From an uncultured Pelagibacteraceae bacterium (GTDB lineage Bacteria; Pseudomonadota; Alphaproteobacteria; Pelagibacterales; Pelagibacteraceae): a DNA stretch of 64,000 nucleotides. The notes under the pieces are model-generated. The model saw only the letters and a program-made list of their open reading frames with translations. It searched no databases and had not been told where the DNA came from. The stretch lies in the NCBI GenBank assembly GCA_902626245.1, contig CACOED010000001.1, positions 1 through 64,000 of the forward strand. Direction: 5' to 3'. The position numbers and the translations under genes were made by a program. Shown here piece after piece: positions 9,925-34,761 of the stretch. Positions within the stretch are counted from its first letter, which is position 1, and each line of letters starts with the position of its first letter.

Positions 9925-11670
9925 ATGAGTGCAGAACAAAATATAAAAGACAACACCTCTAAAGAGGTGTTGTCTTCAAAATCAGATACAGTTGCAGGAG
10001 ATATTTATGTACAAGATGTTCATAAATATTTTGGAGTAACCAGGGCATTAAATGGAGTAAATTTTAGTGCAAACTTTGGCGAAATCCACGCGATTGTTGG
10101 AGGTAATGGGTGTGGAAAAAGTACACTTGCAAAAGTCATGTCAGGTGTTTTGCCAATTGATAAAGGTAAAGTTTCTGTCTTAGGTCATACACCTACGTCG
10201 CCTGTAATGGCTAGAAATATGGGAATAGCAACTGTATTTCAAGAAGTCATGATCGCTGAAGAAGCATCGGTTGTTGATAATTTATTTGTTGGTTCAGATG
10301 ATTTTTGGTGGAAAAATTTTACTCAAAGAGAAAAGGTTTTAAAAGCTCAAGAAATTATGGAAGATCTTGTTGGCGAATATGTTGATCCATATACACAGGC
10401 TTTTAATCTATCATTACCTATTAAAGCATGGATTACAATTGCTAGAGCTTTCTTACGTGAAAATACAAAAGTTCTAATACTTGATGAGTCTTCAGCTGCA
10501 CTTGATTTTGACTCAACTGAAAGATTATTTAAAAAAATGAGAGAATTAAGAGACAACGGTGTAGCTGTGTTTATTGTTACCCACAGAATTGCAGAATTAG
10601 TAAGAATAAGCGACAAAGCAACGGTAATGAGAGATGGTAAAGATGTTGGCGTATTAGAAAAAAAAGATCTAAATGAAAAAAATTTAATTGGTTTAATGAC
10701 AGGAAGAGCAGAAACAGGAGAAAAATCTAAATCTATTGCCGTGCAAACTAAAACTGAAAAAGTAGTTTTGAGAGCAGAAAATTTGGTTGTTTGGCCAGAT
10801 AGTAAGCCTGTAAATTTTGAGGTAAAGAGAGGTGAAATAGTAGGTGTAACAGGATTGGATGGAAATGGACAAGATGATTTTGTTAAAATTTTAGCAGGTG
10901 TTCAGGAAGCTCATGGAGGTACTACAGAAATTTTAAACAGTAATGAGAATTTTTCAAAATATAATTCTTTAGATGATGCAAAAAAAAATGGGATATCTTT
11001 CGTTTCTGGTGACAGAAAAAAAGAAGGAATACTTCCAAACTTAAGCATTTATGAAAATTTAGTGGTTCCCCTGTATAAAAAAACAAGTAGAGGAGGTTTT
11101 TTAGGTTTTGTAGATTGGCTTGAGTTAAATGGAATATTTGATTGGGAAGTAGATAGACTTAGTATTAAAACTGGTCCTAGTGATAATTTAATAGGATCTC
11201 TAAGCGGAGGAAATCAACAAAAGGTTATGATAGCAAGATCATTTGCACAACATCCTAAAGTTTTAATTTTAAACGATCCTGCAAGAGGTATAGATGTGAG
11301 TACTAAGAGAGACTTATATGTCCACTTAAGAAAATATGTAGAAGAAGGCAATACAGTTATTTTTTTATCCAGTGAACTAGAAGAATTTATAGGGCTTTGT
11401 CCAAAAGTCATGGTTTTTAGAAACGGAACAGTTTTCGATATATTTGAAAATGAAGATGTAAATGCTGATACTTTGTTAGAAGGAATGTTTGGACAAACAT
11501 CTGGGATTGGTGAAACAACAATTTCTAGTAAATCAAATATGCCTTCTGAAGTGCCTGTAAATAGAAAAGTTATTAATAAAATTCCTGAGAAGAAAAAAGT
11601 AAAAATAGTAGATTTTGATAAAGAAAATAATAAAGAAAATAAAACAAAAATAAAAATAAAAACATTTTAA
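9925..11670 (+). CDS. Sugar-type (RbsA/MglA-like) double-domain ABC ATPase with Lys-rich C-terminal tail
   Basis: GGNGCGKST, second domain LSGGNQQKVMIARSFAQHPKVLILNDPARGIDVSTKRD; tail ...KKKVKIVDFDKENNKENKTKIKIKTF. Confidence 0.85.
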   Translation: MSAEQNIKDNTSKEVLSSKSDTVAGDIYVQDVHKYFGVTRALNGVNFSANFGEIHAIVGGNGCGKSTLAKVMSGVLPIDKGKVSVLGHTPTSPVMARNMGIATVFQEVMIAEEASVVDNLFVGSDDFWWKNFTQREKVLKAQEIMEDLVGEYVDPYTQAFNLSLPIKAWITIARAFLRENTKVLILDESSAALDFDSTERLFKKMRELRDNGVAVFIVTHRIAELVRISDKATVMRDGKDVGVLEKKDLNEKNLIGLMTGRAETGEKSKSIAVQTKTEKVVLRAENLVVWPDSKPVNFEVKRGEIVGVTGLDGNGQDDFVKILAGVQEAHGGTTEILNSNENFSKYNSLDDAKKNGISFVSGDRKKEGILPNLSIYENLVVPLYKKTSRGGFLGFVDWLELNGIFDWEVDRLSIKTGPSDNLIGSLSGGNQQKVMIARSFAQHPKVLILNDPARGIDVSTKRDLYVHLRKYVEEGNTVIFLSSELEEFIGLCPKVMVFRNGTVFDIFENEDVNADTLLEGMFGQTSGIGETTISSKSNMPSEVPVNRKVINKIPEKKKVKIVDFDKENNKENKTKIKIKTF

Positions 11671-12176
11671 TGAAAAAAGAAAATAAAATTAATTATTATA
11701 ACGACGAAGACAAAGTTAATTTTGAAAAATTAAATAATTTTAATAAATTTAATTCTAAAAATATAAAAAGTGCCGAATTAAATAATTTTAATACTAGATA
11801 CTCTAATTCCGATAAAAATTATTTTAATACTATTCTTAAAATTGATGAGAATACATCATTGTTAAATAATAGTAATAAAGAAAAAAAATATTATAATACA
11901 TCAGATTTTAAAAAATTTGATCAACTCAATAATTTTCCTGAGTATAATAATAAAATAGATTATCAGAATAAAGAAAATTTGGGTTCTGGAACAAAATATA
12001 AATCAAGTGATTATGGTGAATTTAATAAAATAATTCAAACAAAAAATAATGAAAAAAAAACTAAAGACCAGAATAAAAAAATTAAAGTTATTGATTACGG
12101 AAAAATAAAAGAAAATGAAAAAAAACTTAAGAACAAAATTGGGGTAGAAAAAATAAAAATTGTTTATTTTGATTAA
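11670..12176 (+). CDS. Orphan Asn/Lys-rich repeat protein with four Y-x3-D-x3-F-x2-[IL] units and C-terminal KIKIVYFD
   Basis: ORF between ABC ATPase and permease, start overlaps the ATPase stop by 1 nt; units YNDEDKVNFEKL, YSNSDKNYFNTI, YNTSDFKKFDQL, YKSSDYGEFNKI. Confidence 0.7.
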   Translation: MKKENKINYYNDEDKVNFEKLNNFNKFNSKNIKSAELNNFNTRYSNSDKNYFNTILKIDENTSLLNNSNKEKKYYNTSDFKKFDQLNNFPEYNNKIDYQNKENLGSGTKYKSSDYGEFNKIIQTKNNEKKTKDQNKKIKVIDYGKIKENEKKLKNKIGVEKIKIVYFD

Positions 12177-15917: not shown

Positions 15918-16637
15918 ATGACAAAAATAAATTGTGATATGGGAGAAAGTTTTGGAATTTACAACGCTGGTAACGACGAACAAATAATGCCGTTGATAGA
16001 TGTTGCTAACGTTGCATGTGGTTTTCATGCATCTGATCCTAATCATATGAGAAAAACAGTAGAATTAGCAAAAAAAAATAAAGTAAAAGTTGGAGCCCAT
16101 CCATCTTTTCCTGACTTACAAGGGTTTGGAAGAAGAGAAATGAAAATGCCAAAGTTAGATTTAAAAAATATGATTATGTATCAAGTTGGTGCTCTTAAGG
16201 CATTCTTAGATGAGTATAATATGCCATTAAATCATATTAAACCTCACGGATCATTATATGTTATGGCTTCAAAAGATGAAGAAATTGCAAGAGCCATTGC
16301 TGATGCTGTCGAAACTTTTAATGTCAGTATTTATGGCATGGCAAATACAGTTCATGAAAAAATTTATAAAAAGGAAAGAAAGTTAGACTTTATTGCAGAA
16401 TTTTATGCTGATTTAGATTATGACAAAGACGGAAAACTTGTAATAGCTAAAGGAAAAAATGCAAAATATAGCAGTAAATTAGCAGTAAATCGTTGTTTAA
16501 GAGCTATAAAAGAAAAAAAAGTTAAAAATACAAGTGGTACAGATACAGATGTTGGTTGCGATATAATTTGCGTTCATTCAGATACTCCCAATGCTGTTGA
16601 AATAATCAAAAGTTTAAAAAAAGCACTTAAAAAATAA
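15918..16637 (+). CDS. pxpA: 5-oxoprolinase subunit A (LamB/YcsF family)
   Basis: INCDMGESFGIY, VANVACGFHASDPNHMRKTVELAKKNKVKVGAHPSFPDLQGFGRR; SD gggggg. Confidence 0.9.
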   Translation: MTKINCDMGESFGIYNAGNDEQIMPLIDVANVACGFHASDPNHMRKTVELAKKNKVKVGAHPSFPDLQGFGRREMKMPKLDLKNMIMYQVGALKAFLDEYNMPLNHIKPHGSLYVMASKDEEIARAIADAVETFNVSIYGMANTVHEKIYKKERKLDFIAEFYADLDYDKDGKLVIAKGKNAKYSSKLAVNRCLRAIKEKKVKNTSGTDTDVGCDIICVHSDTPNAVEIIKSLKKALKK

Positions 16638-16643
16638 AAAAGT

Positions 16644-19097
16644 ATGAAAAAAATTCTAATTGCAAACCGTGGGGAAATTGCCTGTAGAATTATTGATAGT
16701 TGTAAAAAACTTAAGTTTCACTCAATCGCAGTTTATTCTGACATAGACAAAAATAGCAAACATGTAAGAAAAGCTGATGAGTCAATTCATATAGGTGCAT
16801 CAAAAGCTCAAGAAAGTTATTTAAATGTAGATAAAATAATTGAAGCAGCAAAAAAATTAAAAGCTGACGCTATTCATCCTGGTTACGGCTTTTTAGCAGA
16901 AAACGAAAAATTTGCACAAAAAGTAATTGATTCTGGAATTACTTGGATAGGACCCAAGCCAAATACAATTGTCTCAATGGGTAACAAAGATATAGCAAGA
17001 GATTTAGCTTTGAAAAGTAATTTACCAATTTGTCCAGGCTTAAATAATAAGGATTTAGAAAATAAAGATTTAGAAAAAAAATGCAATGAAATTGGTTTTC
17101 CTATTCTAGTAAAAGCTAGCGCTGGTGGAGGTGGAATAGGAATGCAAATTGTTAATGATTATGGAGAATTAATTAAATCTGTAGAAAAAACAAAAAATTT
17201 AGCTAAGAAAGCTTTTGGTAACAGTGATATCTTTTTAGAAAAATTTATAAAAAATGCAAGACATATAGAAATACAAATATTTGGTTTTGGTGAAAAGAAA
17301 GCTGTACATTTTTTTGAAAGAGACTGTTCAATTCAAAGAAGATTTCAAAAAATTATAGAAGAAAGCCCAGCACCAAAGATAGATGAAAAAATTTTAAATG
17401 AAATGGCACAAAGTGCAGTTAACTTTGCAAGTAATCAAAGTTATGAAGGTGCTGGTACGATAGAGTTTATCTATGATGTGGATGAAAAAAAATTCTACTT
17501 TTTAGAAATGAATACAAGAATTCAAGTAGAACACCCTGTTACAGAAAGTATAACCAACTCAGATTTAGTAGAGATGCAAATAAAGTTTGCATTAGGTATT
17601 GATCTTGATTTGATGGAACAAAATAAAATTAATAGGAGCGGTCACGCAGTTGAATGTAGATTGTATGCAGAAGATCCTTCAAAAAACTTTCTTCCTTCCC
17701 CAGGAAAAATTACAAAACTAAAAATTCCAAACTTAGGCTTAACAAATATTAGATTGGATATTGGTGTTGATGAGGGGGATGAGATATCTTTTTATTACGA
17801 TCCAATGATAGCGAAGATCATTTCTAAAAGTAAAAATAGAACTGAAAGTATTAATAATATGATAAATTTTTTAAAAGATCTTGAAATTGAAGGTATTAAA
17901 ACAAATAAATCTTTTTTGATATCTGTTCTCCAAAATAAAACTTTTGAGGATGCTAACTTTAATACAAAATTTATTGAAAATAATTTAACTTTATTTACAG
18001 AAAAAAAAGAAATTAACTTAAAAGACAAACAGCAAAATAAAAATAATGAGCAAAAATATAGCGATAAAGATGTAAAAGCATTTGAAAAAATTATTTCAAA
18101 AACTCCAAAAATTAAAAATGGTCAAGACTATACAGAAAAAGACTTAAAAGAATTTGAAAATATTGTTTCATCAAAAAGTAAAAAGAAGAAAACTGATGAA
18201 AATACTGAAGTAAACAACGTTCCAGGCAAAATTTACGATATTCCTAAGTTCTTACCCGCTGGTGATAAATATATGCTTATTGAATTTGGAAATGTGATGA
18301 ATTTAGAGCTTAATTTTACCGCTCAAAATCTAGCAAAGGCAATAAAAGACCATAAAGTTAAAGGTGTTTACGAAACATCTCCATGTTTTGCTTCTATGAT
18401 AGTTCATTATGAACCTGAAGAAATAAAATTTAATGAATTAAAAAATGAACTTATATCTCTAATCAACTCATTAGGGCCTTCGGATGATATAGAAATAAAT
18501 AGTAGAATTTTTTCTTTTCCAACTGTTTATTTGGATAAATGGACTAAAGAATGTATTGAAGATTACTCAAACAAAATAGCTAAAAAGAAACCTGATCCTG
18601 AACTTATAACCGAATTAAATAATCTTGAGAATATTGATCAGTTTGTAAGAGTTCATTCAAGCACAGAATATTGGGTAGCAGCGATAGGTTTTTGGCCAGG
18701 CCTTCCGTTTATGATGGCTCTTGATCCAAGGTGTAAACTGACTGTTCCAAAATATAATCCTCCAAGAACTTGGACTCCAAAAGGAACTGTTGGTATGGGT
18801 GGTGCTTCAACTTGTATTTATCCAGATCGTCTACCAGGTGGTTATCAAATTTTTGGAATTATCCCTGTTCCTATCTGGGATACCAAAAAAAGTTTTCCAG
18901 TATTTGAAAATAATATATGTCTTTTTCAACCTGGTGACAGAGTAAAATTTGTACCTACTACTTATGAAGAGTTTGACCATGTGTCAAACAAAATAAAAGA
19001 TGGGACATATAACTATAATATTGTTGAATATCAAAAATTCTCAGTAAAAAATTATAAAAGTTGGTTAAAAAAAATCGACCATTCAAAGAGGTTTTAA
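16644..19097 (+). CDS. Fusion: biotin carboxylase (AccC-like) + Lys-rich linker with two repeats + 5-oxoprolinase subunit B (PxpB/KipI)
   Basis: ILIANRGEIACRII, FLEMNTRIQVEHPVTE; C-terminal FWPGLPFMMALDP...NPPRTWTPKGTVGMGGASTCIYP...GGYQIFG. Confidence 0.9.
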   Translation: MKKILIANRGEIACRIIDSCKKLKFHSIAVYSDIDKNSKHVRKADESIHIGASKAQESYLNVDKIIEAAKKLKADAIHPGYGFLAENEKFAQKVIDSGITWIGPKPNTIVSMGNKDIARDLALKSNLPICPGLNNKDLENKDLEKKCNEIGFPILVKASAGGGGIGMQIVNDYGELIKSVEKTKNLAKKAFGNSDIFLEKFIKNARHIEIQIFGFGEKKAVHFFERDCSIQRRFQKIIEESPAPKIDEKILNEMAQSAVNFASNQSYEGAGTIEFIYDVDEKKFYFLEMNTRIQVEHPVTESITNSDLVEMQIKFALGIDLDLMEQNKINRSGHAVECRLYAEDPSKNFLPSPGKITKLKIPNLGLTNIRLDIGVDEGDEISFYYDPMIAKIISKSKNRTESINNMINFLKDLEIEGIKTNKSFLISVLQNKTFEDANFNTKFIENNLTLFTEKKEINLKDKQQNKNNEQKYSDKDVKAFEKIISKTPKIKNGQDYTEKDLKEFENIVSSKSKKKKTDENTEVNNVPGKIYDIPKFLPAGDKYMLIEFGNVMNLELNFTAQNLAKAIKDHKVKGVYETSPCFASMIVHYEPEEIKFNELKNELISLINSLGPSDDIEINSRIFSFPTVYLDKWTKECIEDYSNKIAKKKPDPELITELNNLENIDQFVRVHSSTEYWVAAIGFWPGLPFMMALDPRCKLTVPKYNPPRTWTPKGTVGMGGASTCIYPDRLPGGYQIFGIIPVPIWDTKKSFPVFENNICLFQPGDRVKFVPTTYEEFDHVSNKIKDGTYNYNIVEYQKFSVKNYKSWLKKIDHSKRF

Positions 19098-19104
19098 ATA
19101 AAAT

Positions 19105-20232
19105 ATGGTTCAAGTAATTAAAAAAGGTCTAGAAACATCTGTTCAGGATTATCCTGGAAGAATTGGAACTTTAAACCAAGGTTTTCCCTCTTCAGGTCCA
19201 ATGGACAGTTGGTCTTTCAGACTTGCAAATGTTTTAGTGGAAAATGAAGCTGGAGCAGCTGCATTAGAATGTCAGTTTATGGGTCCAACACTTAAATTTG
19301 ATAGTGATAGAATTATTGCAATTACTGGAGCTGACATGCGTCCAAAGATAGATGGAAAGCTTGTTCCATTATGGGAAAGTTTGTCAGTCAAAAAAGATCA
19401 AATTTTAGAAATGTCTTATGCAACTATAGGTGCAAGAGCTTACATTGCCTTTTCTGGAGGAATTAATACTACGCCTTGGCTTGGTTCAAGATCTACTTTT
19501 CACAAAGCAGGAGTTGGTGGAATAGATGGTAAAGCAATACAAGATGGTCAAATTATCCCTTTGAATAAATCTAAGTCATATCCTGGTAGAAAAATTAAAA
19601 AAGATTCTATCCCAGTAATGTCTACAAATAAAAAATGGTCAATAGAAGTTGTTAAAGGACCAAATGATGATTGGGTAGATGAAAAAGGACATAAAATGTT
19701 TTTAAATGCTGACTGGAAACTTCAGTCTAAAAGTGACAGAACAGGTTATAGGTTAGATGGGCCAAAATGGTCTTTTGCTGAAAAAGCAACTAACAAAGGT
19801 TTAGAGCATGGAACTTATCCCTCAAACATTATCGATCAAGGATATCCTGCGGGAGCAATAAACTTGGCCGGACAAACTCCAATTATTTTAGTCAATGATG
19901 GTCCTAGTATGGGTGGATTTATTGTTCCTTACACTGTTCCTTCGGCATCTTTTTGGAAACTTGGCCAAGCAAAACCAGGTGATAGTTTTAATTTTGTTAA
20001 AATATCTGTTGATAAAGCTCAAGAATTACGATCGGAACAAACCCAAATTTGTAGTGAAATTAGTGTGATATCTTCGAAAAAAGACAATGATTTAAATCAA
20101 AAAAAGAAAAAAATAAAAATTGATCATATAAAGATTGTTGATTTTGACAAAGAAAAAATGAACGAAAAAATAAGAACTAAAATAATGGAGAGAAAAGGAA
20201 TGAAATCAATTAAAATTAGATATTTTGATTAG
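19105..20232 (+). CDS. pxpC: 5-oxoprolinase subunit C (PxpC/KipA, AHS2) with C-terminal KIVDFD...KIRYFD tail
   Basis: VIKKGLETSVQDYPGRIGTLNQGFPSSGPMDSWSFRLANVLV; GASLEC-type core; tail IKIDHIKIVDFDKEKMNEKIRTKIMERKGMKSIKIRYFD. Confidence 0.9.
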   Translation: MVQVIKKGLETSVQDYPGRIGTLNQGFPSSGPMDSWSFRLANVLVENEAGAAALECQFMGPTLKFDSDRIIAITGADMRPKIDGKLVPLWESLSVKKDQILEMSYATIGARAYIAFSGGINTTPWLGSRSTFHKAGVGGIDGKAIQDGQIIPLNKSKSYPGRKIKKDSIPVMSTNKKWSIEVVKGPNDDWVDEKGHKMFLNADWKLQSKSDRTGYRLDGPKWSFAEKATNKGLEHGTYPSNIIDQGYPAGAINLAGQTPIILVNDGPSMGGFIVPYTVPSASFWKLGQAKPGDSFNFVKISVDKAQELRSEQTQICSEISVISSKKDNDLNQKKKKIKIDHIKIVDFDKEKMNEKIRTKIMERKGMKSIKIRYFD

Positions 20233-21270: not shown

Positions 21271-22107
21271 CTAATCGTAATAAAACATTGGTGCTTTTTT
21301 CCAGTCTAACCATGCAACTGGATCATGGCCCCATACAACTTTTGCATCTGTTTCTTTAGCAACTTTTCTTAATTTTTTTACTGACACCGCAGCGTCAGAT
21401 GAGGATGTAACTAATCCTGGTAAACATTTATCACACCAATGATCTCCTGTATAAACTGCATCTCCAGTTAATAAAATATTTTTTGTTTTTGGTAAGTTAA
21501 CTAATACGGATTGATGACCAGGGGTATGTCCAGGCGTATAAATTAATTTAATTGCTCCATCGCCAAAAACATCATAAAAATCTGTTTTTCTTCCTTGCAG
21601 AAATTTCCACCTTATGTTTGGTTTATCGAAATCAGCTCTTATATATGCTGGTTGAGAAAACCAGTCTGGATTAAAAGCATAATCATATTCAGTTTTTTGT
21701 GTTATGTAAGTTGCATTTGGAAAGTGCCCAAGAGCGCCCGAATGATCTAAGTGTAAATGTGTTTGTATTACATATTTCACATCCTCGGGTTTAGTATTAA
21801 CTGTTTTAACCATATCACGGCACCATTCCGATGGCTTCATCACCGGATCATAAGCTTTTATAACATCTCCCCAATGTTTATGTTTATCTAATGCTACTTC
21901 TATTGGCATTCCTCCGTCTATAACAACATCTCCTTCTGGATGTTTAATTAAAAACCATGGTACGGGTATCTCGTAAGGCTCTTCTCCCTGGTTCATTTTG
22001 ATAAATTTCACTTTGGTTTTTATAGATCCAGTCTGAAACATATAAAGTTTAATTCCAGTATTAAACTTAGTTGTACTTTCAAATATATCTTCGTTTTTTA
22101 TTTCCAT
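21271..22107 (-). CDS. Metallo-beta-lactamase-fold lactonase resembling AttM/BlcC
   Basis: QTHLHLDHSGALGHFPNA metal motif, PGHTPGHQS, LLTGDAVYT; N-terminal KLYMFQTGSIKTKVKFIKMNQG matches AttM-type layout. Confidence 0.8.
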   Translation of the reverse strand: MEIKNEDIFESTTKFNTGIKLYMFQTGSIKTKVKFIKMNQGEEPYEIPVPWFLIKHPEGDVVIDGGMPIEVALDKHKHWGDVIKAYDPVMKPSEWCRDMVKTVNTKPEDVKYVIQTHLHLDHSGALGHFPNATYITQKTEYDYAFNPDWFSQPAYIRADFDKPNIRWKFLQGRKTDFYDVFGDGAIKLIYTPGHTPGHQSVLVNLPKTKNILLTGDAVYTGDHWCDKCLPGLVTSSSDAAVSVKKLRKVAKETDAKVVWGHDPVAWLDWKKAPMFYYD

Positions 22108-22115
22108 AAATTATC

Positions 22116-23285
22116 CTACCAAGCTGCCTCATAAATATTTAGTGCATCAATTTCTGTAACTTCTCTAGGGTTGTTAATTAAAAGACGTGTTTGCTTCATT
22201 GCGTCTGAAGCCATTTTCTTACATGCACTCTTTGGGATATTTACTTCTCTCAGTTTTTGTGGAAGACCAATTTTTTTAGATAAACTCTCTAGTCTATCGA
22301 TGAATTCTGAGCACACTGCTTGACTTCCCTGATTAGTATTAATGTCAGGAAATAAAAATGGTGCTAACTCTGAGTAATCATGAGTTGCCTTATTACTTAC
22401 ACTATTAAATCTTAACACATAAGGAAGTACTAAAGAATTTGAAAGCCCATGAGAAATATGAAAAGTTCCACCAATGGGATATGCAAGAGCATGAATGGCC
22501 GCAACTGGAGAATTAGCAAAAGCTTTGCCAGCTAACATTGCTCCTATCAACATATTTCCTCTTGCTTCAATATTTGAACCTTCAAATACTGCTTTTTCTA
22601 TAGATCCACCAAGTAATTTTAAAGCTTCTATTGATAACATTTTCGAAATAGGATTATTATTTTTACTTGTAGATGCGTATGCTTCAATTGCATGGACCAT
22701 AGCATCAATTCCTGTTGCTGCTGTAGTACCTGCTGGAAGACCTAAAGTTAAATCAGGGTCTAAAATAGCTAAATCAGGTAATATCAGTGAAGAAGAAACT
22801 CCTTTTTTTTCTTCCTCTCCAACAGTTATAATTGATACAGGCGTAACCTCTGATCCTGTACCTGCGGTGGTTGGAATTAGAACAAGAGGTAATCGTGGTC
22901 CTTTTGCATTTGCAACTCCCCATGCTTCTTCTAAATTTTCACCAGATCCAAGTATTAAAGCTGTAAGTTTAGCTACATCCATGGAAGATCCTCCTCCAAA
23001 ACCAATAACACCTGTTGCTTTAATTTTTTTTCCAACTTCAATTGCTTTAAGAAGAGTTTTTTTGGAAGGATCTGCTTCAACGTCATCAAAAATTTCAACT
23101 GAACTAATTTTTTTTAATTCTTTTAAAGTTTGCTCTGTTAAGCCCAATGACATTAAACCTTTATCAGTTATAAAAAGAACACTTTGACCTAGTTTGTTAG
23201 AAATTTCTTCACAAGAATCTTTTGCTTGACCACTTCCATATCGAAGACCAGGTGTTGTATTAAATTGAAAAGAATTTAAAGTCAT
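22116..23285 (-). CDS. Iron-containing alcohol dehydrogenase (AttL/BlcB-like candidate)
   Basis: GFGGGSSMDVAKLTALIL, PTTAGTGSEVTPVSII, IHALAYPIGGTFHISHGLSNSLVLPYVLRFN. Confidence 0.85.
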   Translation of the reverse strand: MTLNSFQFNTTPGLRYGSGQAKDSCEEISNKLGQSVLFITDKGLMSLGLTEQTLKELKKISSVEIFDDVEADPSKKTLLKAIEVGKKIKATGVIGFGGGSSMDVAKLTALILGSGENLEEAWGVANAKGPRLPLVLIPTTAGTGSEVTPVSIITVGEEEKKGVSSSLILPDLAILDPDLTLGLPAGTTAATGIDAMVHAIEAYASTSKNNNPISKMLSIEALKLLGGSIEKAVFEGSNIEARGNMLIGAMLAGKAFANSPVAAIHALAYPIGGTFHISHGLSNSLVLPYVLRFNSVSNKATHDYSELAPFLFPDINTNQGSQAVCSEFIDRLESLSKKIGLPQKLREVNIPKSACKKMASDAMKQTRLLINNPREVTEIDALNIYEAAW

Positions 23286-23291
23286 AAATTA

Positions 23292-25358
23292 TTACACAAA
23301 GTAAACATAAAATATTATTGAAAATATTGCTATTCCTATAAGAATTAAAATCCACCCATATCCTGTGCCAACTTTGTCAATATAATTTACTTCTCCTTGG
23401 ACCTCGTCTGGCGGTTGATACAAATCATTAGCTTGAATAGGTTTGTTTGGCAAAGTTGATAAATCCATTTTGTTAGATAAAAACCAAATTAAGCCAATTC
23501 CAAAAAACCACCATATTAATTGATATCCCCAAATAGATGGTATTTTTAAAATCCACGCTTCATATCCTGCTCCAGGTTCTCCAAAAAAATTATTGCCTAA
23601 AACTTGTCCAGGTCCAACACCAAAAAACAACCAAACTAAAGCTATTACGTAAGCAAATGATCTTAATTTCGTTCTACTAGGATGTAGGCCCATATGATCA
23701 TTTAAAAAATCATGAAATTTTTGTCTATGAGATCTGTACATATCAATCTTGGTAATATTTGAAAAACCAGAAATAGAGAAACAAATAAATACGTTAAATA
23801 TTAAACCCCATACCCCTGAATGAATTGTTAAAGGCCATCTCCCCCAAGGTAATCTGTTTCCAGTAATTTGCTGTCCAATCGTTTCAGTTAAAATAACAAT
23901 AATGATTCCGATTATCAAACCAGACATTGCTGCTCCTTTGGTAATCCAAGGAAACCATAACAATCCTAATAAAACAATAATAAACTGAAAAGCTATTGAT
24001 ATCGAAATTCCACTAAAAATTACCATTGCTGGTTTAGCAAACGTAGCTAAATATAGTGAAGCTAAAAAAATTAATAACATAATAATTCTAGCAACAGCTA
24101 GTTCTTTTTCCCAAGATATATTTTTATTTACATAAGTTTTATATAAGTCTCTAGTAATAATACTGCCGGAAGTCATTAATAGCGCTGAAGATGTTGATTG
24201 TAGAGCTGCTATTATTCCAACTCCTAATAAACCCGTTAACCAAAGAGCATTTTCGTCCATTAAATTTATAATATTATAAATTATTAATGAACGATCATTA
24301 TTTTGTGTCTCTGGGAGCAGATTTTTAATTGCTAACCCATTACTGTTTATTTCTGGATTAGCTCCTAACAAACTTGCACCAATACCTTGGAAAGTTGTAA
24401 AAATAAATAATAATAAACCCACTACTACTGCAGAACCCCATACTTGATAATATGAAAATACTTTTGGATGTTTTGCAGAGTAACTCCACATAGAAAAAGA
24501 AGGAGAGAGGATAATACCCATAAATGTTACTGTAAAAGTAAATATCATCATTGCTGTCCATGGACCGCCGACTGCTTCGTTTTTACCTAAACCTGCAACC
24601 CATTGAATAACTCCTGGTAATGCAAAATATCCATTATAGTCTCCTCCTCCGTAGCCATTTGTATTTCCCCATGAACTAATTGAAGTGCTTGCAATTTTTG
24701 CTAATGATCTACCAAATGAATCTAAATCCCCAATGAAAGAATAAATAATAATTCCTAAAACAATAACAGTTACAAAATATAACCATGACTGAACTACACC
24801 AACGCTAACAATTGATTTAAATCCCCCTCTTGTAACATAAAAAAGAACAATTGTAGAAACTACCCACATTCCCATTTCTCTAGAGACATAACCTTCACTT
24901 AAAATATTTATTAAATAACCAGTTGCTCCGAAAAAAACTGCTATAAGCGGAATTGCTACGAAAAAAGTTACTAAAACAGATAAAACTCGAATAGTGTCGC
25001 TTTTATAATAATCATAATACATTTCACCTGGTGTAATATATCCAAATTTTCTACTTAACATCCACTGACGCTTAAAAAAAAATATACTTCCAAGCGGCAC
25101 TGTTATTGCAATAAAAGCTGTTCCTACATATTGAAAACCATCGTTAAAAATTAAATTTGTTTGAGATATTACGGTTAAACCTGAAAAAGTAGCTGCTGTT
25201 GCGGCAAAGAAAAAAACCCAAGAAGAAACATTTTTATTTGCTAAATAAAATTTTTCTGGACTATCAGAATTATAATTAGATCCTCTTACACCCCAAAAAA
25301 AACAAAATGCGGCATAAATTAATATAAATATTAACAACCAAAGAGATTTTTCGGACAT
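23292..25358 (-). CDS. Sodium:solute symporter (SSS) family transporter
   Basis: Many TM segments; FFAATAATFSGLTVISQTN, ALQSTSSALLMTSGSIITRDLY. Confidence 0.8.
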   Translation of the reverse strand: MSEKSLWLLIFILIYAAFCFFWGVRGSNYNSDSPEKFYLANKNVSSWVFFFAATAATFSGLTVISQTNLIFNDGFQYVGTAFIAITVPLGSIFFFKRQWMLSRKFGYITPGEMYYDYYKSDTIRVLSVLVTFFVAIPLIAVFFGATGYLINILSEGYVSREMGMWVVSTIVLFYVTRGGFKSIVSVGVVQSWLYFVTVIVLGIIIYSFIGDLDSFGRSLAKIASTSISSWGNTNGYGGGDYNGYFALPGVIQWVAGLGKNEAVGGPWTAMMIFTFTVTFMGIILSPSFSMWSYSAKHPKVFSYYQVWGSAVVVGLLLFIFTTFQGIGASLLGANPEINSNGLAIKNLLPETQNNDRSLIIYNIINLMDENALWLTGLLGVGIIAALQSTSSALLMTSGSIITRDLYKTYVNKNISWEKELAVARIIMLLIFLASLYLATFAKPAMVIFSGISISIAFQFIIVLLGLLWFPWITKGAAMSGLIIGIIIVILTETIGQQITGNRLPWGRWPLTIHSGVWGLIFNVFICFSISGFSNITKIDMYRSHRQKFHDFLNDHMGLHPSRTKLRSFAYVIALVWLFFGVGPGQVLGNNFFGEPGAGYEAWILKIPSIWGYQLIWWFFGIGLIWFLSNKMDLSTLPNKPIQANDLYQPPDEVQGEVNYIDKVGTGYGWILILIGIAIFSIIFYVYFV

Positions 25359-25372
25359 TTAATCCTTTCACT

Positions 25373-25741
25373 TTAGGTACAACGCATTGGCGCTGACTCG
25401 CCACGTTCTTTTTTTATTCTTTCTGCTTCTTCCTGTGCTTTTTCAATTGAATTAAAAACTTTATCTTCAAACAAAATAAAAGGTTTTGCTCTATCGGCAT
25501 TAAGTTGCGCCACACACCATTCTTTACCAGGTTTTGTACACATTACCATATACGCTCCTGGTATGGGTCCATACCGTCTATTGTTTAATGTAAAAAGGCA
25601 CTTAGCAAGTTCGGTCAATTTATCTTCATCTAAATTTCCTAAAGCATTCTTTTCTAATTCATTCAATGGTGTAACATTGTCAGATCCTAGCACGCTTTTA
25701 CCGCCTGTTCCTTCTGGTCTTGTAAATTGAGGTTTGTCCAT
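25373..25741 (-). CDS. Hypothetical protein adjacent to DMFase-like large subunit
   Basis: Its start overlaps the DmfA2-like stop by 1 nt; soluble 122 aa protein. Confidence 0.6.
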   Translation of the reverse strand: MDKPQFTRPEGTGGKSVLGSDNVTPLNELEKNALGNLDEDKLTELAKCLFTLNNRRYGPIPGAYMVMCTKPGKEWCVAQLNADRAKPFILFEDKVFNSIEKAQEEAERIKKERGESAPMRCT

Positions 25742-28098
25742 TATGGTAGTGGTCCTTCTTTTAAAAATCCTTTAATAGCATTCTCTAAAATTTTAGAAAC
25801 GTTATTGTTATAATTGTTGTATGATAAACTTCCACACCAAGATAATGAACCTGGAGCAAACAAAGCTCCGTCATTTGGGGTTTTGTAATAAATCATGTCA
25901 GCTCTAACCATTGGGTTCTCTGTACCTCCGCCGTAAAAACCTCTAACTGTAAAATGAATTTCCTCATTAACTTGCATCATTAAATTTGTATGGTTTTCAG
26001 ATCTTGCTAGTAAATATGCGTTATGCGGAGTTCCAAATTCTAGATCATATCTATCAAGTTCTAAACCTGCGGCGCCACCACCTACTAAACCAAAATCTCC
26101 AATAACTTCATCTTCGCCTACTCCATCAAAGATCCATGAACATTCAGGTCTTTTACTATCAGGACATCTTTTATAATAAGAACCAACATCAAAACCATAA
26201 GCTGTGAAAGTTAATCCACAAACTTTTGATGGTATTCTTCCTCTTGCTCTCCACATCCCTCCATATTTTCCGTCAAAGGCATTGTTGTATTCACCCGGAT
26301 TTGCAGTCCATGCTCTTGTGCCAGCTTCTCCTTTTCTTACTTCAATTATATTTGGATTGTCAGGATGGTATTCGCTTATCCAGTAAAATCCATCGGATCC
26401 TAGATATATCCATCTACCTCCATTTAATTGGTATTGTTCATAGGCTGCTAACATTTTTTCTGAGCTATACTCAGGGTGCGAACCCGTTAAAACGCATTTG
26501 TATCGATTTAATAATTCTACTCCTTCTAAATGTAAATCTTCATCAGTTACTACATCAAAATCAATTTTTTTCTCTTCCAACCAGTCAGTTAAATGCAAAT
26601 CTGCATTTAGTTGCCAAAGCGAAGGTGATAGCCAATGTCTATATTTAGGTCTCATATTTAAAATTGGTCTTAGTCTAGAAGAGATAGCAACACCACTGCC
26701 ATCAGAATGTTTAGAATATGTTGATAAACCATACTCTCTATGTTCATTTAGATATAAATCTGATGCAGCTAAAACAGGAACTTTTCCTGCTAGCAATTGT
26801 GCTACAACTGAATTTGTTCCTAGATTGTCGTTAGAATATGCTAAATAACTATTCGTTGGCAATACAAAACAAAGTTTAGATGTTGCTTTTCCTTTTGGTG
26901 GTTTTATTACAAATGGAATAAAATCCTCCGTTTCCGCGGACTCTTCACCATTGATTCTTAATCTTGCAGCATAAACTCCACTTCGAATTAAATCAGGAAC
27001 TTTATATGTAAAGTCTACATCCCATCTTGCATCGTCTATATCATCATCATGAAAATGAATAGCACCATATTCTTCTGGTTTGTGATGAAAAACCATTTCA
27101 TCTGCAGTCCAGTTATAACCTGTCATACCTCTACATGGTAAATTAATAATAAATCCATTTAGGTGATTAGATGTGGTATCAATTATATATGTAGAAGCTA
27201 TGTTTTTAGTAATGTTTGCATGAAAGTCCCATGCTCCTATTACTTCAGATCTAAGTTCAGATGTACAACCACTATATCCTCTTGCTAAAGACTCTATTTC
27301 AGATTTTGATAAAGCTTTTTTACTTAATCTTGGTCTGTCTATTTTACCATTATAAGTTAAAGTTTGCTCTGGCAATTCAATTGGATTTAATGCTTCTTTA
27401 TAATGTCCTCCATGAATATGCCTGCCTGATCTATCGTTTAATGTGCATGCTGACATTAAAAAAGGAGCATCATTAGCTCTAGGTTTTAGATTATTTACTG
27501 ATTCAACATAAGAAGTTGTTTCATCTGCTGGATGAAGTAAAGACATCCCTAATCCGCCATTTGTAGGAGTGACACACGGTTCTTGATAAAGTTTTAATTT
27601 TCCTGTTTGAGCGTCGTAAGTAGCTGCAACCAAATACCAAACTTTTCTCATTAGTTCTTTTTCACTCGAAAGAGTGGTTACTTGACCGCTTCCATCTCCT
27701 ATCATTACTGATAAGCATTTATTCTCATCTATAAAAAGACCATAACCACTTTTAGCTTTATCATTCCATTTAGTAAGAATTCCCTGTTTACCTTTTTCTG
27801 GTGTAGTTGGAAAAATATAAGCTTGTAGAGTGAAACTTGTTGTATTCAATCTATCGTCTTGAGGAATTATTATATAAGAGCCTCCATGAATTCTCTGATT
27901 TCTTCCTTGAAATGTTTTATTACATTCAGCACCTATTTCTTCGTCTTTATAACCAGGACCTTCAGGATTGGTATCTCCATGGATAAGTCTTACAATTTGT
28001 ACATCGTAGTTTTCGTTTTTTTCTGCATTTACATAAAACTTAATTTCCTCTCCAGGAAAAGCTTGGTACTTATCACTGTAGCCAGTAATTCTTAACAT
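25741..28098 (-). CDS. N,N-dimethylformamidase large (beta) subunit-like protein
   Basis: N-terminal GYSDKYQAFPGEEIKFYVNAE, concanavalin-like domain (SFTLQAYIFPTTPEKGKQGILTKW), C-terminal LCFVLPTNSYLAYSND...YKCVLTGSHPEYSSEKMLAAYEQYQLNGGRWIYLGSDGFYW. Confidence 0.8.
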   Translation of the reverse strand: MLRITGYSDKYQAFPGEEIKFYVNAEKNENYDVQIVRLIHGDTNPEGPGYKDEEIGAECNKTFQGRNQRIHGGSYIIIPQDDRLNTTSFTLQAYIFPTTPEKGKQGILTKWNDKAKSGYGLFIDENKCLSVMIGDGSGQVTTLSSEKELMRKVWYLVAATYDAQTGKLKLYQEPCVTPTNGGLGMSLLHPADETTSYVESVNNLKPRANDAPFLMSACTLNDRSGRHIHGGHYKEALNPIELPEQTLTYNGKIDRPRLSKKALSKSEIESLARGYSGCTSELRSEVIGAWDFHANITKNIASTYIIDTTSNHLNGFIINLPCRGMTGYNWTADEMVFHHKPEEYGAIHFHDDDIDDARWDVDFTYKVPDLIRSGVYAARLRINGEESAETEDFIPFVIKPPKGKATSKLCFVLPTNSYLAYSNDNLGTNSVVAQLLAGKVPVLAASDLYLNEHREYGLSTYSKHSDGSGVAISSRLRPILNMRPKYRHWLSPSLWQLNADLHLTDWLEEKKIDFDVVTDEDLHLEGVELLNRYKCVLTGSHPEYSSEKMLAAYEQYQLNGGRWIYLGSDGFYWISEYHPDNPNIIEVRKGEAGTRAWTANPGEYNNAFDGKYGGMWRARGRIPSKVCGLTFTAYGFDVGSYYKRCPDSKRPECSWIFDGVGEDEVIGDFGLVGGGAAGLELDRYDLEFGTPHNAYLLARSENHTNLMMQVNEEIHFTVRGFYGGGTENPMVRADMIYYKTPNDGALFAPGSLSWCGSLSYNNYNNNVSKILENAIKGFLKEGPLP

Positions 28099-28120
28099 TG
28101 AATAAGCCTCAATAAATTAA

Positions 28121-28540
28121 TCATCCACCATGCCTCTCAAGTAAATCCACAACTCTTTTTAAAAAGATTGCATGCTCACATGCTTCTTCTGATGAAAAAG
28201 ATTCTTCTAATATCTCAACTGGTTCACCTCTTACACCTGTTACGATTCCAATTCTATAATCTTCAAAATCTTTTTTACAAATGGTTACATACTTTTTAAT
28301 GTGCATAGGCTGGCGTCTAAGCTTGTCTAATACTATTTGTAATTCTTTACTATGTTCAACCATTGGCTGACCTTTGTGAGGTTGTGGAGCTCTTCCTACT
28401 GGTGTTGCTCTATGCTCCTCTATTAATTTATTTCTCATTTTCTCATCTCTAAGAAGAGGTAAAACATATTTTTCAGTTATAAAATCATCAGTACTTGTAT
28501 GACCTAGATCTAGCTGTACTCCTGTTTTATCTTTTTTCAT
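28121..28540 (-). CDS. N,N-dimethylformamidase small (alpha) subunit-like protein
   Basis: EEHRATPVGRAPQPH...LDKLRRQPMHIKKYVTICKKDFEDYRIGIVTGVRGEPVEI...SSEEACEHAIFLKRVVDL resembles DmfA1 as remembered; adjacent to the large subunit. Confidence 0.7.
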   Translation of the reverse strand: MKKDKTGVQLDLGHTSTDDFITEKYVLPLLRDEKMRNKLIEEHRATPVGRAPQPHKGQPMVEHSKELQIVLDKLRRQPMHIKKYVTICKKDFEDYRIGIVTGVRGEPVEILEESFSSEEACEHAIFLKRVVDLLERHGG

Positions 28541-28562
28541 TGCAAACCCCCTTTTTTAATAA

Positions 28563-29417
28563 TTACTTATTAGTCCTTTCTTGAATTATTTTTAAAGCTT
28601 CAATTAAATAAACTCTAAATACTTCATGATTTTCACTCATTGGGAAATGGCCAATATCGGTCATTTCAATATAAACCCCTCCTTTAATTTGCCTTGCTGT
28701 ATTTTCTGTTGCTTCGGGGGGAGTTAGATAATCATAAGTTCCAGTTAACATTATTACTGGACATTTGTGCCCGTCAATATTTTTTAATTCATTTCTTAAA
28801 TCGTGATCAACTGAATAAAAATATAAATCTCCTTTAAATGCCTCTGATCCCTGTGTGTAATAATGCCATGTCAACCATCTATCTTTTTCTGGTGATTGTG
28901 GTGCCATTAAATCCCATGTTCCACTTGCACAAACTTGTGCTGCATTAGCATGAGGATGTCTCCACCAATCTAAATAAAATCCTGGTGCATAATCTGCAGC
29001 TTCAACTGGAATAACTGCTCTAAATTTATTTGGATGCCTTAAAGCAAGTTGTAGAGCTACATTTCCCCCGAATGAGGATCCCATAAATATTGGATCTTTC
29101 AAACCTAAAGCATCACATAATTTAACAATAAAATTACAATAATGTTCTGCAGTTAACTTGTATTCTTCTTTCCACCATTCTTTATTGTGTGGAGGATCTG
29201 ATTTTCCATGTCTTGGTAAATCGTATGCTATAACATTATAATTTTTTGTAATTTCTTCATCTTCTAAAAGACCTCGCCATTGGTGATTATGACATCCCGC
29301 AGTATGTTGACAAATTAGTGGAATACCCTTCCCATTTTGTAAATAAAAAACTTTATATTCACAATCGTCTACTTCTATTGTTACATAACGTCCAACTACG
29401 TCGTGATGTTTTACCAT
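28563..29417 (-). CDS. Alpha/beta hydrolase
   Basis: GSSFGGNVALQLA nucleophile elbow, YDLPRHGKS, GHFPMSENHEVF. Confidence 0.85.
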   Translation of the reverse strand: MVKHHDVVGRYVTIEVDDCEYKVFYLQNGKGIPLICQHTAGCHNHQWRGLLEDEEITKNYNVIAYDLPRHGKSDPPHNKEWWKEEYKLTAEHYCNFIVKLCDALGLKDPIFMGSSFGGNVALQLALRHPNKFRAVIPVEAADYAPGFYLDWWRHPHANAAQVCASGTWDLMAPQSPEKDRWLTWHYYTQGSEAFKGDLYFYSVDHDLRNELKNIDGHKCPVIMLTGTYDYLTPPEATENTARQIKGGVYIEMTDIGHFPMSENHEVFRVYLIEALKIIQERTNK

Positions 29418-29448
29418 TTAGTTTCTCCTATAAAATTATAATCCTTCA

Positions 29449-29838
29449 TTAAACTGGAACTCCTGTTTTTCTTAACAATTCAAATTGAACTGTAAAATTT
29501 CTTAAATTTTTCATTAGAATTAAGTGATTTCCTTCAATTTTTAAATCTCTTAAAAAACTAGCTGACCATATTCCGTGGTACATTGGTTTGGGCATTGGCT
29601 GACCAAATTCTCTCCATGTTTTTGCTGAAGCTCTTAATGCAAAATCGTAAGGGTCTAATGGTGACGGATTTGTATTAATATTTTTTACTTTACCATCGTG
29701 CATTTCTATTATCACTTTTGCATTTTCCATATCAAACATAAAAGAGCATGTATAATATTTTGCCATAGCTTTGATGGTCTCATCGCCGTTAGTAAGATCT
29801 TCATATTTTTTTGCCCAATTTTCAATTTCTGTACTCAT
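29449..29838 (-). CDS. Small SCP2-like (sterol carrier-like) protein
   Basis: Layout ...KYYTCSFMFDMENAKVIIEMHDGKVKNINTNPSPLDPYDFALRASAKTWREFGQPMPKPMYHGIWSA suggests an SCP2-type fold; tentative. Confidence 0.45.
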   Translation of the reverse strand: MSTEIENWAKKYEDLTNGDETIKAMAKYYTCSFMFDMENAKVIIEMHDGKVKNINTNPSPLDPYDFALRASAKTWREFGQPMPKPMYHGIWSASFLRDLKIEGNHLILMKNLRNFTVQFELLRKTGVPV

Positions 29839-29855
29839 AAAATATTTAATTTAAA

Positions 29856-31844
29856 TTATTTGTTTTTTGGATTATTGGCTCCTTTTAAATTTTTTGCATC
29901 TTCACCAAAGTTCATATGATAATCTTTTTTTGGATTTCCATAATCACCAAGGATATTTCGGATGTTACTAATTTCTCCAGGATTCATTCCAATTTCTTTA
30001 AGAAGACTATCTAAAAACGGTTGATGAGCTCTATATCTTAAAGCTGAACTAACTACGTTATCTGCCAAGTTTCCTCCTCCACCTTTAGATCCACCAGAAG
30101 CAGCTGATCCGCCACCTCCCGAAGGTGAAACACTTGTTCCGCTAAATCCAGGAAGACCACTGACATCAACAATTTTAATGTCACCAATATTTGCCATAGG
30201 TTTAACACTCTCTCTAATAATTGACTCAATTTTTTCAGCAAGTTTAATTCTTAATGCACTTCTTCTATTTGCATCACTTCTGACGTTTTCAGCAAGGTTT
30301 AAAGCTTCCTTACCTGCAGCATCTATTTCATATCTTAGCTTAGCAGCCATAGTAGCATATTTATCTTGCTCAGCTTTTGCAGACGCTTCTATTACATCAA
30401 CTTGTTTAATTCCTTCGGCTTTTTCTATGTATCTTGTCGAATTAGCTTTTTCTTCAGCTTCTACAGCTTTAGCTCTAGTATTTTGTTCTTCCGCCTTGGA
30501 AGCAAGAACCTCCTTAGATTTTTCAATTATTTCTAATTCTTTTTGATGTTCTTCAATCTGAATTCTTTTCGCTTTTTCAATATCTAAAGTTCTAACTTCT
30601 TTTTCAGACTCTATTCTATGTGAGTCTATATTTCTCTGCTGGGCAATTTTAGCGTTTTTAATTTCTTGTTCAGAAATTATTTGTGCTTCCTCAGCTTCTT
30701 TTTGTCTTTCTGATTGCTCTTTTATAATAGATGTTTTTTCTTGTGCACGTTTTATATCTACTAATCTTTGTTTTTCTAAACGTGCATATTCACTTTCTTT
30801 ATCCAAATTTAAAATCTTAACTTCAGTTTCAAGATCTTTTTGTCTTATGTCAAGAGCTGCATTTTTTTCTAGTTCATTCTGCTCTTTTCTTCTTTTCTCA
30901 ATTTCTTCTATTAACCTTGTTTCTGTGAGTTTTCTTTCAACTTCAATAACTTGATTTTGAGAAATTTTTGCAACTTCAATTGCTTCTTGACTTTTGATCT
31001 CTGCTTCCTCTGCTTCTCTTTCTTTTTCTGCTCTTTGTTTTATAGATTCAGTTTTTTCATTAGCCTTTTGAATAGCAACTTCTCTTTCTTGTTTAAATTT
31101 CGAAAACTCCTCATTTTTTTTAATTTCTAATTCTTTTTGAACAGTTTCTAAATTTTTATTTTCAATAGATATTTTTGTATCTTGTGTAATATCGTTTCTT
31201 TTCTTTTTCCTAGTTTCAATTTGTTCAGTTAATTGTGTTAAACCTTGCGAGTCAAAAGTATTTGCCGGATTAAATTGTTCTATAGGAGTTTGATCTAAAG
31301 AAATTATTGAGACTGTTTCTAAAGCTAATCCTGTATGACCAATGGACTCATCAGCAATTTTTGTAACTTCTTTTACAAACTGTCCCCTGTTCTCTTGTAT
31401 TTCGTCTAGAGTCATTTTTGCTGCAACTTCACCTAAAGCATCTGCAAAACGACCTTGAACTACTTCTCTTAAATGTTCAGGATCAAGTGTTCTATTACCT
31501 AAAGTTTGTGCTGCAGTTGAAACAGCTTTGGGATCAGGTGGAACTTTAGTAAAAAATTCAGTAACGAGTTCAGCTCTCATTCTGTCTTTGGTTATTAATG
31601 ATTTATCTCCACCTCTTTTTATAGTTATACTCAATGTTCGCATACCTACTTGAGTAATATTATGAATTATTGGTAGAACAAATGCACCACCTGATATAAC
31701 AACTTTTTCTCCTAGCATTCCCGTTCTTACAAATGAGACTTCCTTTGAAGATCTTCTGTAAAGCCAATGCAATAAATAAACTATTATTGCTATTGCAAGT
31801 GCTAATAAAATTATCGCTGCTATTATATCTGCTCCTCTAGTCAT
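29856..31844 (-). CDS. Flotillin/YqiK-like SPFH-domain protein with long coiled coil
   Basis: N-terminal TM, GEKVVISGGAFVLPIIHNITQVGMRTLSI, extended E/K-rich coiled coil, Gly-rich C-terminal segment. Confidence 0.85.
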   Translation of the reverse strand: MTRGADIIAAIILLALAIAIIVYLLHWLYRRSSKEVSFVRTGMLGEKVVISGGAFVLPIIHNITQVGMRTLSITIKRGGDKSLITKDRMRAELVTEFFTKVPPDPKAVSTAAQTLGNRTLDPEHLREVVQGRFADALGEVAAKMTLDEIQENRGQFVKEVTKIADESIGHTGLALETVSIISLDQTPIEQFNPANTFDSQGLTQLTEQIETRKKKRNDITQDTKISIENKNLETVQKELEIKKNEEFSKFKQEREVAIQKANEKTESIKQRAEKEREAEEAEIKSQEAIEVAKISQNQVIEVERKLTETRLIEEIEKRRKEQNELEKNAALDIRQKDLETEVKILNLDKESEYARLEKQRLVDIKRAQEKTSIIKEQSERQKEAEEAQIISEQEIKNAKIAQQRNIDSHRIESEKEVRTLDIEKAKRIQIEEHQKELEIIEKSKEVLASKAEEQNTRAKAVEAEEKANSTRYIEKAEGIKQVDVIEASAKAEQDKYATMAAKLRYEIDAAGKEALNLAENVRSDANRRSALRIKLAEKIESIIRESVKPMANIGDIKIVDVSGLPGFSGTSVSPSGGGGSAASGGSKGGGGNLADNVVSSALRYRAHQPFLDSLLKEIGMNPGEISNIRNILGDYGNPKKDYHMNFGEDAKNLKGANNPKNK

Positions 31845-31856
31845 AATTGTTCCTCC

Positions 31857-32561
31857 TTAAATCTGTTTTCCTTTCCTTGTGTCTTGTATGGCTGCACTAT
31901 AGATAATCATTCCAAATATTATTTTATTTAAAAAATCAGCTAAATTATAAATTACATTTAAACTATTTATGTTTGCTCCACCTGCTAAGTGTTCAATAAA
32001 ATATCCAATATGATAAATTGAGAAGCCTATTGTTATAATTAGCCTATTTGCAAAAAAAGCCATTTGCACACTTTCGTTCCCACATGATGCATTTTTCCTT
32101 CCAGTATCTCCCATGTAGAGTTCACCAATAATATAGAGCCATCCTACAATACCTACCAAAAATCCTAAGGTTACACTCATATATCCGTAAGCTCCTAAAA
32201 GTTGAGCTATTACCCACACCAGAGTACCTACTAAAAGACGCCAAAACATTCCTCTTTTAATATCTGTAACTGAATTAAGCATTACATAAAAAGTCAAAAT
32301 TGTTAGTGGAAAAGTTAACAACCAATCAATGTATCTTAATGCTATTGGAGCCTGTCCATTTAAGACCCATAAATTCTTTGCATAAAAATAATGTATGGAT
32401 GACATTAAAGCGATAACACCAACCAGGTTCATTACTGTTGACCATCGACTTGATAATCGGCCTCTTTCTAAAAAGAAGAAAATTGCAGCACCTATCATTG
32501 CAACAGATATCAGCCAGAAAGAACCCCCTACAATATCCTGTGGTAATAATAGCTTATTCAT
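31857..32561 (-). CDS. Microbial rhodopsin, proteorhodopsin-related, divergent active site
   Basis: Seven TM; helix C RYIDWLLTFPLTILTFY; helix G NSLNVIYNLADFLNKIIFG with retinal Lys. Confidence 0.93.
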   Translation of the reverse strand: MNKLLLPQDIVGGSFWLISVAMIGAAIFFFLERGRLSSRWSTVMNLVGVIALMSSIHYFYAKNLWVLNGQAPIALRYIDWLLTFPLTILTFYVMLNSVTDIKRGMFWRLLVGTLVWVIAQLLGAYGYMSVTLGFLVGIVGWLYIIGELYMGDTGRKNASCGNESVQMAFFANRLIITIGFSIYHIGYFIEHLAGGANINSLNVIYNLADFLNKIIFGMIIYSAAIQDTRKGKQI

Positions 32562-32686
32562 AATTCCGCAATATTCCCTTTATTAAAATAATCTAATTAA
32601 CTAAAGAGTTTCTCATAAATCAAATTAAAAATATCATATATTTTTTACTTATATTTTATAGAAGTTTATTAACTATTATTTGCAAC

Positions 32687-32707
32687 AAAAAAAAAATTTT
32701 TTTTTTT
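32687..32707. other. Consecutive A10/T11 homopolymer tract in divergent intergenic region
   Basis: aaaaaaaaaattttttttttt read directly. Confidence 0.9.
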
Positions 32708-32714
32708 AAAATAC

Positions 32715-32768
32715 AATTCTTGGTAGAATTTTTTTTTAAACTCGAAATAGAAGAATAATTTTATTTCG
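32715..32768. promoter_or_regulatory. Two inverted repeats between rhodopsin operon and parA-like gene
   Basis: AATTCT-TGGT-AGAATT (32715-32730) and CGAAATA-N12-TATTTCG (32743-32768). Confidence 0.45.
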
Positions 32769-32798
32769 ATAAAGTTTTAATAAATATATTATTAAATA

Positions 32799-34758: not shown

Positions 34759-34761
34759 GAA

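Follow-up and report, generated by a model that had tools for sequence, protein, structure and literature searches.

The run of ten genes headed by a rhodopsin in the window (the whole stretch of DNA that was analysed, 64,000 nucleotides) is the flotillin-associated rhodopsin (FAR) cluster already published for SAR11, and its gene order is that of the published reference AG-390-L03. The island extends past the borders drawn in the original prediction into a convergent operon, and we read the whole, with a probability of roughly one half, as a flotillin-anchored import and catabolism unit assembled by shared tail tags. This reading builds on observed gene order, co-conservation, tags and residue changes, and from these we infer the docking, its hub, the substrate and a non-light role of the rhodopsin. 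The FAR gene cluster was described in Pelagibacterales, HIMB59 and Pseudothioglobus by Haro-Moreno et al. 2023 (PMC10308929), whose main text gives ten co-stranded genes with 16 nt from rhodopsin to flotillin, lists a sterol-carrier-like protein, a sodium symporter, DMFase, PxpA and biotin-dependent carboxylases among the FAR genes, and presents metatranscriptome reads showing co-transcription of rhodopsin and flotillin. The earlier remark that rhodopsins of this group are usually solitary is wrong for the present clade, whose defining feature is an adjoining flotillin gene.

The ten open reading frames lie on the minus strand from 32561 to 21271, exactly where they had been placed, and the junctions, counted from the rhodopsin, are 12, 17, 31, 22 and 22 nt, a 1-nt overlap, and then 14, 6 and 8 nt, confirming the claim of gaps of about 31 nt or less, with the 1-nt overlap as the single one. 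The family assignments are also borne out (Bac_rhodopsin, SPFH/flotillin, alpha/beta hydrolase, DMFA2_C, SSF, Fe-ADH and MBL lactonase). The first gene encodes the FArhodopsin of 234 aa (31857..32561), whose best PDB matches are 9r21 and 9r23, 'flotillin-associated rhodopsin' (E ~1e-89), and 12 nt away on the same strand is the gene for a 662-aa flotillin/SPFH protein (29856..31844; Pfam Flot E 3e-30, Band_7 E 1e-10) with 78 orthologous loci. These are followed by a small SCP2-like protein of 129 aa (29449..29838), 70–97% identical across families, and a 284-aa alpha/beta hydrolase with a GxSxG motif (28563..29417; Pfam Abhydrolase_1 E 2e-21), which is the most conserved of the cluster proteins (80–97%). 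Next are a DMFase-type small subunit (28121..28540; PDB 6lvb_B E 1.4e-6, and the small-subunit profile), the adjoining large subunit (25741..28098) and a protein of 122 aa (25373..25741); the run is completed by an SSS-family symporter of 688 aa (23292..25358; Pfam SSF E 1.6e-20), an Fe-dependent alcohol dehydrogenase (22116..23285; Pfam Fe-ADH/ADH_Fe_C) and an AttM/BlcC-type metallo-lactonase (21271..22107; PDB 9kho, 326 bits). The SCP2-like label comes from weak matches: three homologues match Pfam SCP2 at E 0.05–0.14 (13–14 bits, below the gathering score of 21.3 bits), the window protein has no match to it, and the best fold matches of a low-confidence model (pLDDT 58) are SCP2 proteins, none of them significant. 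A paralogous pair of an SCP2-like protein (24–27%) and an adjoining hydrolase (44–47%) is seen in several families (L281, L282, L283, L285, L286), with rhodopsin and flotillin absent nearby.

Because the gene order is kept in relatives, the ten-gene run is not a chance arrangement. Internal promoters and terminators within it show no clear excess over shuffled sequences, with, for example, 7 terminator-like sites against 5.1 (sd 2.0) in the shuffles. A spacer of 237 nt (32562..32798) separates the FAR operon from a divergent ParA-like gene and is the presumed promoter region; its conservation among the 40 SAR11 loci compared is patchy and AT-rich. An operator shared between spacers was considered and rejected, the rhodopsin spacer being conserved only in AT-rich patches. 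The divergent ParA-like ATPase (32799–33437) is retained in nearly all SAR11 FAR loci and could position the complex. Flanking the FAR island in many SAR11 genomes, and in the window at 33925–36881, are a TauD dioxygenase, a phosphonate-type HD oxygenase (171 bits against a cut-off of 214.6) and a choline-dehydrogenase-like GMC oxidase, with phosphonate or methylamine use as a possible function.

The convergent operon is encoded on the plus strand at 8706–20232 and comprises an ABC importer, a 168-aa protein and PxpA/carboxylase genes. The importer is of the sugar type, with a substrate-binding protein (8706..9908; Peripla_BP_4 E 3e-38), an ATPase carrying a bipartite C-terminal tag (9925..11670; Pfam ABC_tran) and two permeases (12179–14500 and 14502–15905; BPD_transp_2). 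Between the ATPase and the permeases is the 168-aa protein (11670..12176), which is rich in lysine and asparagine (K 21%, N 19%), contains repeats, ends in the tag IKIVYFD and had no match in a Pfam search; it is probably a disordered multivalent linker. The rightmost three genes encode a PxpA (LamB/YcsF) family protein (15918..16637; Pfam E 8e-90, and above the NCBIfam PxpA subfamily cut-off), a biotin carboxylase fused to a PxpB/CT_C_D domain (16644..19097; Pfam), and a PxpC/CT_A_B subunit, also with a bipartite C-terminal tag (19105..20232; Pfam). The PxpB and PxpC equivalog cut-offs are missed in the window (89 vs 145.6 bits and 180 vs 500 bits, respectively).

The flotillin of the cluster is present in 9 of the 396 genomes of the family, and in 3 of the 140 that are of good quality, and the cluster is therefore an accessory island. 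A scan of a collection of 85,462 species genomes yielded 78 SAR11/HIMB59 loci, all 78 with the rhodopsin–flotillin pair. In seven the contig ends before the amidase could appear; the other 71 all contain the SCP2-like gene with the hydrolase and the small with the large DMFase subunit, the amidase being close to rhodopsin–flotillin, and an uptake-plus-catabolism unit tied to flotillin, as had been proposed, is upheld to this extent. The HIMB59 loci differ from those of SAR11 in having ABC permeases and PxpA/carboxylase genes directly upstream, a relocated symporter and no Fe-ADH. A Caspian MAG bin (casp150-mb.165) contains both SAR11-type and HIMB59-type FAR clusters (L112, L142) and is probably a mixed bin. 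Through a flotillin survey of the phylum plus a hydrolase survey, the module was also found in two further families of Alphaproteobacteria, here called f66 and f71, whose genomes are larger. The f66 genomes (G750, G579, G672) have the order importer, rhodopsin, flotillin, SCP2-like, hydrolase and lactonase with a symporter nearby, and the f71 genomes (G943, G1258, G1222, G1303, G1246) have a like gene set; the importer adjoins rhodopsin and flotillin in seven of the eight, the eighth (G1246) being split across two contigs. Since all eight have rhodopsin–flotillin and SCP2-like–hydrolase–lactonase without the amidase, the amidase is an add-on. The predicted bond between rhodopsin and amidase half stands, being unbroken in the readable SAR11/HIMB59 loci and absent from all eight genomes in which the module was found outside them.

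Unrelated proteins of the cluster (the ABC ATPase, carboxylase subunits, the disordered 168-aa protein and the lactonase) carry a common tail tag, IKIVDFD ... IKIVYFD. In the window it reads VKIVDF...IKIKTF-end in the ABC ATPase, IKVIDY...IKIVYFD-end in the 168-aa protein and IKIVDFD...IKIRYFD-end in PxpC; in HIMB59 it is VKVVDF...IKVKYF-end in the ATPase and IKIVET...IKVVYFD-end in the biotin carboxylase; the ATPase of f66 genome G672 has IKIVET...VKVVYFDD-end; and in f71 the ATPase has IRIVEFG and the lactonases have N-terminal tails with one to four copies. The same bipartite tag is borne by the carboxylase in HIMB59 but by the ATPase in f66. There is also a second motif, Y-x3-D-x3-F, with four copies in the 168-aa protein (aa 10, 44, 75 and 110), two in the carboxylase linker, and further occurrences in the N-terminal tails of the HIMB59 lactonases. 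Where ORFs had been trimmed to their first start codon, the strict motif A1 overlooked some of the f71 tails, and those were read directly. Within the last 65 residues, two tags are present in 3 of the 19 window cluster proteins, compared with not even one copy in 787 SAR11 and 181 GC-rich background proteins taken from genome samples. Motif enrichment gives Fisher p values of 1e-5 to 5e-8, but the tag patterns were written after the sequences had been inspected and these values are therefore a guide only; the recurrence of the tags in four lineages, of which two are GC-rich, is the stronger argument. In our reading the tags have a docking role and would assemble a complex at a flotillin patch. 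It is unlikely, though by no means far-fetched, that the tails instead mark proteins for degradation, bind membranes or were copied from gene to gene by recombination; many are C-terminal, basic and aromatic, and the tagged genes are neighbours, but the tails are retained on different proteins in both AT-rich and GC-rich genomes, and in the lactonases they are N-terminal too, in up to four copies.

The large subunit of the amidase scores 637 bits to DMFase 6lvb and 444 bits to N-acetyl-(R)-beta-phenylalanine acylase, and the DMFase iron ligands Y399/Y440/E521 (PMC7686228) are conserved in the alignment as Y421, Y461 and E543, with H541 near E543. Dimethylformamide is a candidate substrate, and related enzymes act on other amides. 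The 122-aa protein is, judging from profile comparisons, a second, divergent DMFase small subunit: hhalign pairs it with the small subunit at 97.9% (E 6e-13) when wider families are included and at 51.7% with profiles of SAR11/HIMB59 only, and hmmsearch gives E 6e-10 vs 0.5 for the best shuffle. A low-confidence model (pLDDT 61), from an alignment that left out two plasmid-derived rows, has DMFase small-subunit chains as its top fold matches, at non-significant scores. Among the loci examined this paralogue accompanies the FAR-type amidases and those of family f82 and Aminobacter, and no others. Of the 386 Alphaproteobacteria sampled, 63 have a DMFase-type large subunit, and at the DMFase-type loci examined outside SAR11/HIMB59 no rhodopsin was found beside the large subunit. 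Plasmid p1 of Aminobacter niigataensis DMFA1 has four consecutive genes (L078:9232-14345), with no rhodopsin, for a flotillin (31% identical), the small and the large subunit and a 122-aa homologue, the flotillin being immediately upstream of the two subunits. In the second DMFase of the window genome (G000:C10:4368-8321, the same as L072:4368-8321), as on an Agrobacterium pAt plasmid (L080:8281-9936), a branched-chain-type ABC permease carries the small subunit at its C-terminus, and the fusion is encoded upstream of the large subunit. The p1 arrangement and these fusions tie the amidase to membrane transport.

The lactonase passes the NCBIfam AttM/BlcC equivalog cut-off (NF045700, 398.9 vs 390 bits). 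The Fe-ADH is above the cut-off of no single NCBIfam model, resembling 4-hydroxybutyrate dehydrogenase (NF058672, 231 vs 500 bits) and its relatives below cut-off. No succinate-semialdehyde dehydrogenase (SSADH) is among the ten genes of the window, and no ALDH of the SAR11 genomes reaches the SSADH cut-off (best 480–501 bits vs 646); one HIMB59 ALDH does, outside the cluster. In two f71 clusters an SSADH near the lactonase passes the model (705 and 687 vs 646 bits), and in f71 locus L172 SSADH, lactonase and Fe-ADH form the trio of blcABC, which degrades gamma-butyrolactone via 4-hydroxybutyrate to succinate semialdehyde. A gamma-lactone/4-hydroxybutyrate route is suggested because of the lactonase, the Fe-ADH and, in one family, the SSADH. 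Degradation of N-acyl-homoserine lactones, in which the lactonase would open the ring and the DMFase-type acylase or the hydrolase would split the amide, is improbable, although it is in keeping with a lactonase of the AttM family, a DMFase relative that is an N-acyl amino acid acylase, the cleavage of both AHLs and GBL by BlcC, and an acyl-CoA ligase that adjoins the SSADH in L172; no LuxR-type regulator was seen in the window cluster, the other families have no amidase, and AttM-type lactonases are promiscuous.

The window rhodopsin has a D79-T83-T90 motif and retains the lysine, K213, as do all 77 of the SAR11/HIMB59 copies. The DTE motif of proton-pumping proteorhodopsin, with its proton-donor Glu, is not present in the 40 SAR11 copies, which have T90 in that place. 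Compared with the separate proteorhodopsin of the same genome, encoded outside the window (G000:C13), the window protein has F84, Q120, F180 and H184, which fill positions of the retinal pocket, in place of V, G, W and P, and T90 in place of E, and all five residues are fixed in the same 40. The FAR rhodopsins form a group in the tree (support 98/98), with the proteorhodopsins apart (100/99). PDB entries 9r21 and 9r23 are unlike at the positions aligned to 84 and 120 (H/V and E/G); presumably the depositors put these two sites to the test. In SAR11/HIMB59 the rhodopsin is under very strong purifying selection (median dN/dS 0.013, compared with 0.012 for the hydrolase and 0.015 for the DMFase large subunit). 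In f66 the lysine of the rhodopsin is kept and the pocket residues are mostly proteorhodopsin-like, so that some members may use light. In f71 the lysine is replaced by R or L and the counterion by G or T, and these lysine-less proteins are under purifying selection (dN/dS ~0.2); in the tree their long branches fall within neither the FAR nor the proteorhodopsin group, and their FAR membership is therefore by gene context and not by the tree. Lysine-less FArhodopsins adjoining flotillin figure in an earlier report on freshwater metagenome contigs. Each of the five f71 genomes has a single rhodopsin and no proteorhodopsin, and beta-carotene dioxygenase is absent from G943, G1222, G1303 and G1246, with a partial match in G1258. 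It had also been remarked that retinal-synthesis genes are missing; the window indeed has no beta-carotene dioxygenase, but the genome has one elsewhere, plus its normal proteorhodopsin.

Judging from these residue changes, the window rhodopsin probably no longer functions with light. The proposal in PMC10308929 that FArhodopsin and ordinary proteorhodopsin form hetero-oligomers in flotillin rafts, aiding proteorhodopsin in dim light, agrees with the presence of both rhodopsins in SAR11 and HIMB59 genomes, but is quite improbable given the near-complete f71 genomes that have the module with a lysine-less rhodopsin alone. Least probable of all is the light-linked module of the original prediction, in which a rhodopsin active in light would power symporter uptake and amide breakdown through proton-motive force or a signal, because while it could explain the invariant K213, the operon shared with the symporter and the f66 homologues, the proton donor is lost, the pocket positions are filled by residues fixed in SAR11, a DTT rhodopsin neither bound retinal nor pumped in E. 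coli in an earlier attempt cited in PMC10308929, and lysine-less forms persist within the same module.

In the flotillin-anchored unit that we favour, the ABC importer and the SSS symporter would import a small compound of the carboxylate, amide or lactone type, and the lactonase, hydrolase and Fe-ADH, with SSADH in some lineages, would convert a gamma-lactone-like product to 4-hydroxybutyrate and on to succinate semialdehyde. The DMFase-type amidase and the PxpA/biotin-carboxylase set would have been added in SAR11 and HIMB59, widening the substrate range. Flotillin would collect the proteins of the unit in a single membrane patch, where the tail peptide of the ABC ATPase, the carboxylase subunits, the 168-aa linker and, in some lineages, the lactonase would dock onto one common partner, and the SAR11 rhodopsin may be a structural or non-light component of the same patch. 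More tentatively, and at somewhat short of even odds, ocean bacteria that rank among the most abundant would have a membrane import/catabolic complex that owes its assembly to a portable, bipartite docking peptide together with a linker that is disordered and multivalent, the rhodopsin having become a retinal-free structural subunit adjoining flotillin. If true, streamlined bacteria with few spare genes keep a scaffolded metabolic complex and have reused the rhodopsin fold without light. The tag offers a direct and cheap handle on what FAR clusters do, in that the binder of IKIVYFD would be the hub, and the amidase-free and lysine-less members set the core of the module apart from its add-ons.

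The window agrees with the FAR cluster of PMC10308929 in rhodopsin clade, flotillin neighbour and ten co-stranded genes; the main text of that paper makes no mention of tail tags, the 168-aa linker, a second small subunit, or amidase-free members in near-complete larger genomes, and we have not found the tag system or the amidase-free/lysine-less members in near-complete genomes in the literature consulted. The amidase has the large and small subunits and the 2-Tyr-1-Glu iron site in common with DMFase (DmfA1A2) and, unlike it, an extra small-subunit paralogue; it also has a flotillin in its neighbourhood, as does the amidase on Aminobacter niigataensis plasmid p1. With PxpABC 5-oxoprolinase/urea carboxylase the convergent operon shares PxpA, PxpB-like and PxpC-like domains, but its PxpB is fused to a biotin carboxylase. 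Finally, the lactonase and alcohol dehydrogenase of blcABC (attKLM) of Agrobacterium are shared with the window and its SSADH with f71, whereas the window cluster has no SSADH and has in addition an importer, flotillin, rhodopsin and amidase.
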